Part shown: piece by piece, positions 9,477 through 11,909 of the stretch
Position numbering within the stretch: the first letter of the stretch is position 1
Layout of the letters: each line of letters begins with the position of its first letter
NCBI GenBank assembly: GCA_027490095.1
Contig: JAIXYT010000049.1
Coordinates: 62,001-126,000 of the forward strand
Direction: 5' to 3'
Source: Sphingomonadales bacterium
GTDB lineage: Bacteria > Pseudomonadota > Alphaproteobacteria > Sphingomonadales > Sphingomonadaceae
DNA: 64,000 bases
The notes under the pieces: generated by a model
What the model was told of the DNA's origin: nothing
What the model saw: only the letters and a program-made list of their open reading frames with translations
The model's database searches: none
Translations under genes and position numbers: made by a program

Positions 9477-10433
9477 ATGGCAGACATCCGGCACACCAGG
9501 CTGCTCATCATCGGGTCGGGACCGGCCGGCTATACGGCTGCGGTCTACGGCGCAAGGGCGATGCTGAACCCGGTGCTTGTCGAAGGTCTACAGCCCGGCG
9601 GCCAGCTGACGATCACCACCGATGTCGAGAACTGGCCCGGCGAAGTCGCCATCATGGGCCCCGACCTCATGGCCAAGCTGCGCACCCAGGCCGAACATGT
9701 CGGCACAGAGCTCGTCTCCGACATCGTGGCCGAAATCGACCTGTCCAGGCGGCCGTTCCGCGCCGTGCTGGATTCGGGCGGCGTCATCGAGGCCGACACG
9801 GTGGTCATCGCGACCGGTGCCAGTGCGCGCTGGCTGGGGCTCGACAGCGAAACGCGTCTTCGTGGCAAGGGCGTGTCGGCCTGCGCCACCTGCGACGGCT
9901 TCTTCTTCCGCGGCAAGCATGTGGCGGTTGTCGGCGGCGGCAACACCGCCGTCGAGGAGGCGCTGTTCCTCACCAACTTCGCAAGCAAGGTGACGCTGAT
10001 CCACCGCCGTGGCGAGCTGCGCGCAGACAAGACCAACCAGCAGCGCCTGTTCGCCAACCCGAAGGTCGAAATGGTCTGGAATGCCACCGTCACCGAGGTG
10101 ACCGGCGCCGACGGTGTGGAGGGCATTGTCCTCACCGACACTCAGACGGGCGCAACACGCTCACTCGCCGTCGATGGCCTGTTCGTTGCGATCGGGCATG
10201 ATCCTGCCACCAGCCTGTTCAAGGGCCAGCTGGCGATGGACGAGGAGGGCTATGTGCTGACCGCGCCCGACTCCACGGCGACCAGCGTGCCCGGCGTCTT
10301 CGCGGCCGGCGACGTGAAGGACAAGCTCTACCGCCAGGCCGTCACGGCTGCCGGCATGGGCTGCATGGCCGCGCTCGAGGCCGAGCGATTCCTGGCGCAC
10401 GGGGCCGACGTCGCCCACCAGCAAGCGGCCTGA
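9477..10433 (+). CDS. trxB: thioredoxin reductase (NADPH)
   Basis: Flavoenzyme that reduces thioredoxin with NADPH. The frame is open far upstream, but the true start is the ATG at 9477 (MADIRHTRLLIIGSGPAGYT) behind CAGGGGCG, giving 318 residues, normal for bacterial TrxB. Seen: FAD-binding GSGPAGYTAA, redox-active SACATCDGFFF with the two active cysteines, NADP-binding VVGGGNTAVEEA, and the FAD motif VFAAGDVKDKLYRQAVTAAG. lysR begins 26 bp downstream on the same strand. The trxB-lysR pair matches the trxB-lsrB arrangement of rhizobia. Confidence 0.97.
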   Translation: MADIRHTRLLIIGSGPAGYTAAVYGARAMLNPVLVEGLQPGGQLTITTDVENWPGEVAIMGPDLMAKLRTQAEHVGTELVSDIVAEIDLSRRPFRAVLDSGGVIEADTVVIATGASARWLGLDSETRLRGKGVSACATCDGFFFRGKHVAVVGGGNTAVEEALFLTNFASKVTLIHRRGELRADKTNQQRLFANPKVEMVWNATVTEVTGADGVEGIVLTDTQTGATRSLAVDGLFVAIGHDPATSLFKGQLAMDEEGYVLTAPDSTATSVPGVFAAGDVKDKLYRQAVTAAGMGCMAALEAERFLAHGADVAHQQAA

Positions 10434-10459
10434 GCGCAAGGTCGGCGGGGGAGGGGAGC

Positions 10460-11368
10460 ATGCCGATCGACTGGGACAAGCTCAGGCTCTTCCACGCCGT
10501 CGCCTCGGCCGGCAGCTTCACCGAGGGTGCGCGGCGCCTGAAGCTGTCGCAACCTGCCCTCAGCCGCCAGGTCATCGCGCTCGAAGAGGCGCTGGGCGCA
10601 AAGCTGTTCCACCGCCACGCCCGCGGCCTCGCCCTCACCAACGAGGGCGAGCAGCTGCGCGCCACCACGTCGCGCATGGCCGAGGAGATCGAGCGCACGA
10701 AAAGCTCCATCGAGGCGACCCGCAACCGCCCCACCGGCGAGATCAAGCTGACGACGACCGTCAGCTTCGGCTCCTCCTGGCTGCCGATGCAGATGAAGGA
10801 CTTCATCGAGCTCTACCCCGACATCCGGGTCAGCCTGATCCTGTCCGACGAGGAGCGCGACCTCTCCCGCCACGAGGCCGACTGCGCCATCCGCTTCCAC
10901 AAGCCCCACCAGGCCGATCTCATCCAGCGCCCGCTCGCAACCATCCGCCATCGCCTCTGCGCCTCGCCGGCCTATCTCGAGGCGCATGGCGAGCCGAAGA
11001 CCCCCGCCGACCTTCTGAAGCACCGGCTGATCGCCTACGGGCCCGAGGCGCCCGCCTATCTCCGCTCGATCAACTGGGCGCTGGAAATCGGCCATGACGG
11101 CCCGCCCCGCGAGCCGGCGCTCAGCGTGAACAACAGCTTCGGCATCCTGCAGGCGGTCGAGGCCGGCGCCGGGATCGCGGCCCTGCCATCCTATCTGATC
11201 CGCCATTCGGGCAAGCTGAAGGTGTTGCTGCCCGAACTGCAAGGCGCGATTTTCCAGACCTATTTCGTCTATTCCTCGGAACTGCGCGGGTCGGTCCGGG
11301 TGGCAGCGCTCAGGGACTTCCTGATCGACCGGATGACGCCGGCCAATCTTGGGGATGCGATCCGTTGA
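10460..11368 (+). CDS. LysR-family regulator, LsrB/VtlR-like
   Basis: A 302-residue LysR protein: N-terminal winged HTH (DKLRLFHAVASAGSFTEGARRLKLSQPALSRQV) and a C-terminal effector domain (about 90-295). Position directly after trxB is that of LsrB (Sinorhizobium) / VtlR (Brucella, Agrobacterium), a regulator of envelope and redox genes that activates AbcR-type small RNAs. Immediately downstream lie a T-N11-A palindrome and a small-RNA candidate, the same kind of neighbourhood. Assignment to LsrB rests on synteny and overall resemblance, not an alignment. Start at 10460 fits GGGGGAGGGGAGC upstream. Confidence 0.9.
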   Translation: MPIDWDKLRLFHAVASAGSFTEGARRLKLSQPALSRQVIALEEALGAKLFHRHARGLALTNEGEQLRATTSRMAEEIERTKSSIEATRNRPTGEIKLTTTVSFGSSWLPMQMKDFIELYPDIRVSLILSDEERDLSRHEADCAIRFHKPHQADLIQRPLATIRHRLCASPAYLEAHGEPKTPADLLKHRLIAYGPEAPAYLRSINWALEIGHDGPPREPALSVNNSFGILQAVEAGAGIAALPSYLIRHSGKLKVLLPELQGAIFQTYFVYSSELRGSVRVAALRDFLIDRMTPANLGDAIR

Positions 11369-11379
11369 CAGCTGCGGCC

Positions 11380-11394
11380 ATGCAATTCGTGCAT
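11380..11394 (+). promoter_or_regulatory. LysR box upstream of the small-RNA promoter
   Basis: ATGCA-ATTCG-TGCAT is a perfect 5-bp-arm inverted repeat and contains the LysR signature T-N11-A (T11381, A11393). Its centre lies about 64 bp before the predicted small-RNA start, the classical position of a LysR recognition site. The lysR gene itself ends at 11368. Confidence 0.65.
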
Positions 11395-11416
11395 AGCTGA
11401 CGTGTTCCTTTCGCAC

Positions 11417-11445
11417 TTGCACAATAAATCCCGCTCACATAGATA
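11417..11445 (+). promoter_or_regulatory. sigma-70-type promoter of the small-RNA candidate
   Basis: -35 TTGCAC (11417-11422), spacer of exactly 17 bp, -10 TAGATA (11440-11445). The predicted start is 11450-11452. The LysR box sits upstream and a three-hairpin RNA ending in an intrinsic terminator sits downstream. Confidence 0.6.
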
Positions 11446-11450
11446 GGGGA

Positions 11451-11591
11451 TGTTGCTGCATTGCAGCGCAGGGCCGGTCCCCTCACTCCTCCCCGAGGGT
11501 CCGGCTTGGTCGACCGCCACTCTCCCTCCCTCCCTCGGGGGTCGACCGAAATCTGGGCCCGACGTCGAGCATGCTCCGTCGGGCCCTTTTT
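11451..11591 (+). ncRNA. candidate trans-acting small RNA, AbcR-like, about 141 nt
   Basis: Three hairpins in order. Hairpin 1 (11473-11505): GCCGGTCCC and GGGTCCGGC with one mismatch, loop containing ACTCCTCCCC. Hairpin 2 (11508-11547): GGTCGACC on both sides, loop with a 17-nt pyrimidine tract (CTCTCCCTCCCTCCCTC). Hairpin 3: perfect 10-bp stem GGGCCCGACG / CGTCGGGCCC (11555-11586) followed by TTTTT. The C/T-rich loops are complementary to ribosome-binding sites, as in alphaproteobacterial AbcR and related anti-Shine-Dalgarno RNAs. It has its own promoter and LysR box beside an LsrB-type gene. It contains no plausible open frame. Expression and targets are inferred. Confidence 0.65.
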
Positions 11592-11685
11592 CGTTCAAAG
11601 GCGGCTGCTGTCAGCGCAAAGCGCTGATCAGCAGACTCGCCGAAAACGCGGCCGGCAGGTTGCCGGCCCGAAGGCCGGCAAGCCT

Positions 11686-11771
11686 GTCCGACGAGCGGGC
11701 TTCGCCCGCAACCTTCCTCTTCCTTCGCTTCAGCACCCCCAGCGGACTCGGCGGCTTTGCCGCCGGCCGCG
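11686..11771 (-). repeat. intergenic repeat element, copy C
   Basis: Read on the minus strand it repeats the order seen in copies A and B: CGCGGCCGGCGGC-AAA-GCCGCCGAGTCCGCT, a GA-rich spacer, then GGTTGCGGGC-GAA-GCCCGC (hairpin at 11695-11709) and TCGTCGGAC. Confidence 0.75.
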
Positions 11772-11832
11772 TGACCGAGAGCCTAACCTTGATGACAAGA
11801 ACCGAGCGCAAGGCTATCACCCACCGCAGGTG

Positions 11833-11909
11833 GGGCCTGTAGCTCAGTTGGTTAGAGCTGGCCGCTCATAACGGCTTGGTCGCGGGTTCGAGTCCTGCCG
11901 GGCCCACCA
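11833..11909 (+). tRNA. tRNA-Ile (anticodon CAT, lysidine-modified)
   Basis: Complete 77-nt cloverleaf with encoded CCA. Acceptor GGGCCTG / CGGGCCC, D arm GCTC...GAGC, anticodon loop CTCATAA, T arm GCGGG-TTCGAGT-CCTGC. The CAT anticodon could mean Met, but the body resembles the AUA-decoding tRNA-Ile2 (the segment after the anticodon, GGCTTGGTCG, and the acceptor GGGCC), which needs lysidine modification of the anticodon by TilS. Confidence 0.85.

Follow-up and report, generated by a model that had tools for sequence, protein, structure and literature searches.

On the forward strand of the window, by which we mean the whole 64,000 nt stretch of DNA analysed, positions 11452-11591 are, as predicted from sequence, very probably a small RNA gene of about 140 nt whose start lies 83 nt past the stop codon of a lysR gene. 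The explanation that we hold with considerable confidence is that it specifies an independently transcribed, trans-acting small RNA, activated by LysR, whose anti-Shine-Dalgarno (aSD) loops lower the translation of target mRNAs, as a counterpart of AbcR1. By position the RNA is the counterpart of AbcR1, and it is probably its evolutionary counterpart as well. AbcR RNAs and LsrB/VtlR, which activates them, are important to rhizobia and their relatives in colonising roots and in virulence; the accessible portions of the work on them describe experiments in Rhizobiales species (PMC7486931, PMC8844928). Coordinates of the gene, its predicted control elements and its neighbours are collected in Table 1.

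Table 1. Features of the predicted small RNA gene and the genes upstream of it, in window coordinates
Feature	Position	Strand	Evidence
trxB, thioredoxin-disulfide reductase, directly 5' of lysR	9477..10433	+	TIGR01292 393.8 bits, cut-off 343.45
LysR-type regulator, LsrB/VtlR orthologue, predicted activator	10460..11368	+	best genome match of Hoeflea olei LsrB
ATGCAATTCGTGCATAGCTG dyad, predicted LysR recognition site	11380..11399	+	TGC[AG]N6GCAT enriched downstream of lysR
LsrB/VtlR box GCAT-N3-TG-N3-T (GCATAGCTGACGT)	11391..11403	+	exact match; -61 to -49 of predicted start
TTCGCACTTGCACAA containing -35 element (TTGCAC 11418-11423)	11410..11424	+	identical in 8/8 aligned sequences
-10 element TAGATA	11440..11445	+	sequence and promoter alignment
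Small RNA gene (predicted)	11452..11591	+	~140 nt; model R1 149.7 bits; fold z -4.69
5' hairpin around TTGCTGCATTGCAGCG	11452..11468	+	helix 1; starts at 11451 as aligned
Hairpin 1; loop ACUCCUCCCC 11485-11494	11472..11506	+	predicted fold; helices 2-3
Hairpin 2; loop with CUCUCCCUCCCUCCCUC 11520-11536	11507..11548	+	predicted fold; helix 4
Intrinsic terminator, 10-bp stem and T5	11555..11591	+	helix 5

Structure of the predicted RNA

A first-pass annotation of this DNA had claimed hairpins that expose pyrimidine loops and a 10-bp terminator stem with a T-run, and the predicted fold bears both out. The loop ACTCCTCCCC of hairpin 1 has a mean unpaired probability of 1.00; two loop-spanning stretches of the 17 nt CT tract in hairpin 2 have means of 0.94 and 0.90; and the arms GGGCCCGACG (11555-11564) and CGTCGGGCCC (11577-11586) pair over all 10 bp of the terminator stem, ahead of the five T residues at 11587-11591. 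The fold energy is -71.8 kcal/mol against a mean of -53.7 for shuffled sequences (z -4.69), and none of 200 shuffles folds as well. Taken singly, neither CTCCTCCCC (once in the GC-rich window, 1.31 expected) nor the VtlR box (four times, 6.67 expected) is rare, so the case rests on their combination, spacing and conservation. A strict consensus scanner returned 0 promoters and 0 terminators, a blank that we attribute to off-consensus hexamers and to a terminator loop above the scanner's 8-nt limit. The sigma-70 promoter with 17-bp spacing proposed in the first-pass annotation is present as hexamers that the scanner passed over (CTTGCA/TTGCAC in 11417-11423, TAGATA downstream), its spacing being 17 or 16 depending on the frame chosen for the -35 element.

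Several features surround the gene. By eye, a number of GC-rich inverted repeats occupy 11620-11780, between the RNA terminator and a tRNA-Met (CAT) gene at 11833-11909 on its 3' side; a tRNA also lies 3' of the copies at loci L065 and L066 and of the relocated copy at L227 described below. Downstream of the tRNA is a TonB-dependent receptor gene (TIGR01782, 12094-14862), which represents a candidate target class. At the start of the RNA, the palindrome CTGCATTGCAG (11451-11468) is similar to the CTGC-N3-GCAG operator of PhaR-type regulators, and could be a second control site.

The adjacent regulator and the promoter

The neighbouring gene was described at first pass as LsrB/VtlR-type, and, judged from its trxB neighbour and the margin of its best match, it is an LsrB/VtlR orthologue. 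Hoeflea olei LsrB, whose own gene has ar15 (97.4 bits) downstream, matches the window LysR best among the proteins of the genome, at 9.3e-86, with the next protein at 8.5e-33; the window protein also shares 46-47% identity with four orthologues from Rhizobiales whose genes are followed by ar15 or ar14. trxB adjoins lysR upstream in 168 of the 199 loci scored. The first-pass statement that abcR genes lie near vtlR in Agrobacterium agrees with the available text of PMC7486931, which gives the A. tumefaciens order as trxB-vtlR-abcR1-abcR2 and trxB-vtlR as conserved across the class. Two conserved LsrB cysteines, C144 and C273 in A. tumefaciens, are named in the accessible part of PMC11975290, of which only one seems to be kept in the window LysR: its C142 lines up with the ADCAIR cysteine that all seven aligned proteins share (a set without A. 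tumefaciens LsrB), and its TYFVY corresponds to TYFCY in the two Hoeflea proteins and to TYFAY in two further Rhizobiales proteins.

With the -10 element at 11440-11445, the predicted start falls at 11452, which puts the VtlR box, an exact match to the consensus GCAT-N3-TG-N3-T (PMC7486931, text available in part), at -61 to -49. The published excerpts on S. meliloti place the LsrB/VtlR box of abcR1 at the same -61 to -49 and report that LsrB activates AbcR1 (PMC8844928); according to those of a further study, LsrB also activates NfeR1 (ar14 family), acting there through a motif between -72 and -57 (PMC10746234). In seven of ten inspected rhizobial RNA copies the exact box stands at -58 to -62 relative to the start of the ar15 or ar14 model; of the other three, the two in L193 keep just the dyad and one (L164) has neither box nor dyad. 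The left half of the dyad is degenerate in L065. Genome-wide, TGCRNNNNNNGCAT occurs at 269 sites and is too common for a regulon search; extended by the CTG tail it has five sites, one being the RNA locus and the other four L216-L219. From the sequence we infer that the RNA is controlled by the adjacent LysR.

The promoter bears directly on how the RNA would be made. In one LysR-positive genome, G258, the two genes are about 263 kb apart (lysR C1:3205576-3206475, RNA C1:2942493-2942633), and the relocated RNA copy, L227, keeps the dyad, TTCGCACTTGCACAA and the -10 element without an adjoining lysR. Together with the dyad, -10 element and -35 region conserved in front of the RNA, and with the independent transcription units formed by AbcR1 and AbcR2 in S. 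meliloti (as stated in the parts of that literature at hand), this speaks against a processed 3' UTR of the trxB-lysR mRNA, released by an RNase and lacking a promoter of its own. Such biogenesis would resemble that of SorX of Rhodobacter sphaeroides, which available extracts describe as cut out of an OmpR-type gene's 3' UTR, and it would suit both the mere 83 nt between the lysR stop and the RNA and the finding that lysR-downstream RNAs elsewhere in the class match SorX, up to 44.1 where the cut-off is 46.6. We regard a processed 3' UTR as quite improbable, and take independent transcription as the working interpretation.

Conservation and covariation

The alignment comprises eight sequences, the window included. 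Among named relatives, Sandaracinobacter neustonicus (order Sphingomonadales) stands closest; its locus L136 duplicates L006, and G003, the genome from which L006 comes, belongs to the genus of the window. A check of hairpin conservation in these relatives found the hairpins kept in all eight sequences: RNAalifold predicts 38 pairs, 11 of them with two-sided compensatory change, and pairs are formed in 95.6% of cases against 88.5% in shuffles, with all five measures beating all 500 shuffles. When partners are slid by 1-3 columns, pairing falls to 33-50%. Two-sided change affects four pairs of helix 3 (hairpin 1), two of helix 4 (hairpin 2) and five of helix 5 (the terminator); helix 1, the 5' hairpin, has 97.9% of its cells paired and no pair with two-sided change. 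Changes cluster in stems and flanks, and much of the loop sequence is fixed.

This pattern is hard to reconcile with a small protein, even though an ATG frame of 130 aa runs from 11450 to 11842. The ATG is missing in four of the eight sequences (L006, L008, L010, L065), and the aligned lengths, 140-148 nt, do not vary in threes; neither start codon nor frame is conserved, and we rejected the small protein as a candidate. A mere operon terminator ending lysR transcription would account for the terminator that is present, but would need neither two extra hairpins nor a promoter. We give these two readings together hardly any credence, and retain that of a structured RNA.

Distribution of the regulator-RNA arrangement

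At a threshold of E<=1e-60, the LysR was found in 34 of 59 relatives, 115 of 192 genomes of the class and 18 of 149 sampled genomes of the family (up to 15 candidates scored in each genome); the regulator seems to have been lost from much of the window's family. Downstream DNA was taken from 88 of the 115 class genomes, 32 of the 34 relatives, all 18 family genomes and 80 named loci, leaving out 27 class genomes (mostly the lowest-scoring or those with the gene near a contig end) and, among the relatives, G012 and G042. Six duplicate loci were removed; 199 of 205 loci, with at least 350 nt downstream, were scored for motifs, and 195 of 205 entered the module test.

Of 199 first-350-nt regions, 103 contain the dyad pattern TGC[AG]N6GCAT and 143 contain CCTCCC; at 450-800 nt the respective counts are 10 and 28 of 193 regions, and shuffles give 4.6 on average for the dyad and 31.4 for CCTCCC. 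The complete module, dyad followed by CCTCC and then by a terminator, is present at 85 of 195 lysR loci, compared with 4 of 186 control regions more distant downstream and 0 of 204 control regions upstream. It appears in 7 of 22 loci of the window's family, 12 of 20 from other families of the order, 37 of 85 from the rest of the class and 29 of 68 named loci and, counting LysR-positive loci of the genome samples apart from the named ones, in 36 of 69 families. The test is a strict script that scores clear copies such as those at L007, L008, L065 and L066 as absent, and its 110 negatives among 195 loci, 15 of them among the 22 of the window's own family, are to be read accordingly; by eye, nothing similar lies downstream of lysR at L028-L030, L033 and L034. 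On these data the LsrB/VtlR switch looks widespread in alphaproteobacteria.

Rfam models were run on 40 named loci out of 80, a selection that gave preference to Rhizobiales names. In 15 of them ar15 (AbcR) exceeds its cut-off, 100-823 nt past lysR, and seven of these 15 have the RNA at about 765-823 nt and not directly beside lysR; ar14 exceeds its own cut-off in one locus, L205. There, in a Roseitalea MAG, ar14 reaches 60.9 bits at L205:3618-3743, 221 nt past the lysR stop, where others have AbcR, and a VtlR box lies 58 nt ahead of the model start. Two loci have a second RNA copy in tandem, reminiscent of the abcR1-abcR2 tandem: L072, by Rfam and R1, and L114, by eye, with a dyad at each copy.

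The covariance model R1 was built from the eight aligned sequences, so that its score for the window copy is that of a training member. A family search with R1 covered 149 genomes, with the same draw size and settings as the LysR search, stricter filters and 21 candidates scored per genome. Matches were obtained in 11 of 18 LysR-positive and 6 of 131 LysR-negative genomes. Ten of the 11 LysR-positive matches lie near lysR or, in G258, with the promoter; that in G010 lies elsewhere. The six LysR-negative matches (6.6e-7 to 0.0077) overlap the weaker LysR-positive ones in strength, and the strongest of them (G016, 6.6e-7) beats several. No convincing upstream dyad accompanies the LysR-negative loci (L229, L233-L236, L239, L240), and the one match to the dyad pattern among them, at L234, sits in an apparent coding repeat. 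Provisionally we took these matches as chance or terminator similarity and did not keep them as copies.

The arrangement as a whole extends beyond Rhizobiales, on the strength of the LysR orthology, of a box at the published distance from the predicted start, and of AbcR downstream of the same regulator in Rhizobiales. The extension of the circuit to another order that the first-pass annotation had imagined therefore stands for the layout, and goes further than guessed; it is qualified by an RNA body that reaches no Rfam cut-off and by a regulator present in so few of the family genomes. Judged by sequence, the annotation had the anatomy of the RNA gene right, and the circuit largely so.

Relation to known RNA families

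Against Rfam, the tRNA alone reaches its cut-off in the window. The best non-tRNA match to the window RNA is ar14 (RF02344): its alignment covers the whole model and scores 38.2 bits, with an E-value of 1.7e-5 over 701 bases searched, short of the gathering score of 58.8. Ten of 20 family loci score 27.9-40.7 bits with ar14 and the other ten give no match at E<=0.5. ar15 (RF02345, gathering score 40) gives no match at gathering in the window and none among the matches listed for the RNA at E<=10, a listing that suppressed one lower-scoring clan overlap, and SorX (RF02784, gathering score 46.6) is likewise absent among the matches listed for the window RNA. suhB/MmgR (RF00519) aligns poorly, at 20 bits over 11521-11600 (cut-off 41; E 0.14 in the 701-base search). 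The covariance search proposed at first pass has in this way supplied an affinity, to ar14, and no membership, neither the ar14 nor the ar15 cut-off being reached. In its body the RNA comes nearer to the aSD RNAs of the ar14/NfeR1 type than to AbcR.

The resemblance to AbcR1/AbcR2 is one of setting and of loop. In Rhizobiales, as far as the accessible sources go, as in the window, the RNA lies downstream of trxB-lsrB/vtlR with a VtlR box at about -61 (in the window, relative to the predicted start); both end in an intrinsic terminator, and both carry UCCUCCC in a hairpin loop, that of the window within the unpaired loop of hairpin 1. The window RNA differs in having two pyrimidine loops and a 5' hairpin. 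Available accounts report ar15 as multicopy in Rhizobiaceae and Brucellaceae, whereas no second copy of the window RNA was found in its genome, where the next R1 match has 15 bits (150 of 568 first-look candidates scored). AbcR RNAs bind Hfq and repress transporter mRNAs; for the window genome, an hfq gene is known from sequence.

NfeR1 (ar14) is one of the cuckoo-type RNAs. It resembles the window RNA in its series of stem-loops, its aSD loops and its variable stems, and in the accessible S. meliloti text it is activated by LsrB, for which the window RNA has a predicted site. The three hairpins of NfeR1 each carry CCUCCUCCC; the window RNA has one CUCCUCCCC loop, one CU tract and a terminator loop without an aSD sequence. 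The LsrB motifs also differ in position, as given above. The RNA could nevertheless be a plain member of ar14/NfeR1 or ar15/AbcR and not a lineage-specific form, which would be compatible with the main mechanism: the ar14 alignment runs end to end, the aSD loop and locus are as for AbcR, and the Rhizobiales-type locus L205 has an ar14 above cut-off downstream of lysR. Against this stand the score under the ar14 cut-off, the lack of an ar15 match among those listed, the two aSD-type loops in place of three identical ones, and the absence of the window site among the genome-wide ar14 matches listed (150 of 219 candidates scored). The weak matches that this search did return, L001-L004, carry little weight, since it was positive in 9 of 14 control genomes too. 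Plain membership strikes us as possible but rather unlikely. In the literature covered, mostly that outside subscription papers and in part only in extracts, neither an RNA of this sort from Sphingomonadales nor a comparable module beyond Rhizobiales came to light, and we read the window RNA as a lineage-specific aSD small RNA in an LsrB-sRNA module documented, in those sources, only in Rhizobiales.

Elsewhere in the class, lysR-downstream RNAs match suhB/MmgR up to 35.1 (cut-off 41), as well as SorX; the family of the window itself includes two loci, L072 and L237, that look SorX- or suhB-like. suhB and ar15 belong to one Rfam clan, CL00108. The intermediate forms across the class share, by eye, a similar 5' hairpin. 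This suggests descent of the lysR-downstream RNAs from one gene, the other possibility being replacement behind a fixed promoter.

Proposed mechanism and significance

In the mechanism that we favour, the adjacent LysR would recruit RNA polymerase to a weak sigma-70-type promoter by binding the dyad/VtlR box, which spans about -72 to -49, and the RNA would end at its own intrinsic terminator. One or two unpaired aSD loops would then pair with the purine-rich ribosome-binding sites of several mRNAs, and this pairing would lower target translation, probably with Hfq; by analogy with AbcR1 and NfeR1, the RNA probably blocks translation of other genes. Transcription, the start site, activation by LysR, target repression and Hfq dependence are all steps that we infer. 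Feedback of the RNA on lysR translation was considered as well, the purine-rich ribosome-binding region of lysR (GGGGGAGGGGAG, 10443-10459) being pairable by eye; it was dropped because that region is missing in L010, L065 and L066.

With the same regulator, operator and spacing before a sphingomonad aSD RNA, and a similar arrangement in so many families, how old the circuit is and what it serves can be tested in harmless free-living species. We lean, by a small margin of belief, towards an LsrB/VtlR-sRNA module ancestral to much of Alphaproteobacteria, in which one regulator-adjacent small RNA gene behind a fixed dyad promoter would have given rise to AbcR in Rhizobiales, to SorX/MmgR-like RNAs in other orders and to the ar14-like RNA here, promoter and neighbourhood staying fixed while the body changed. 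If that is true, several RNA families that now bear separate names would go back to a single gene.
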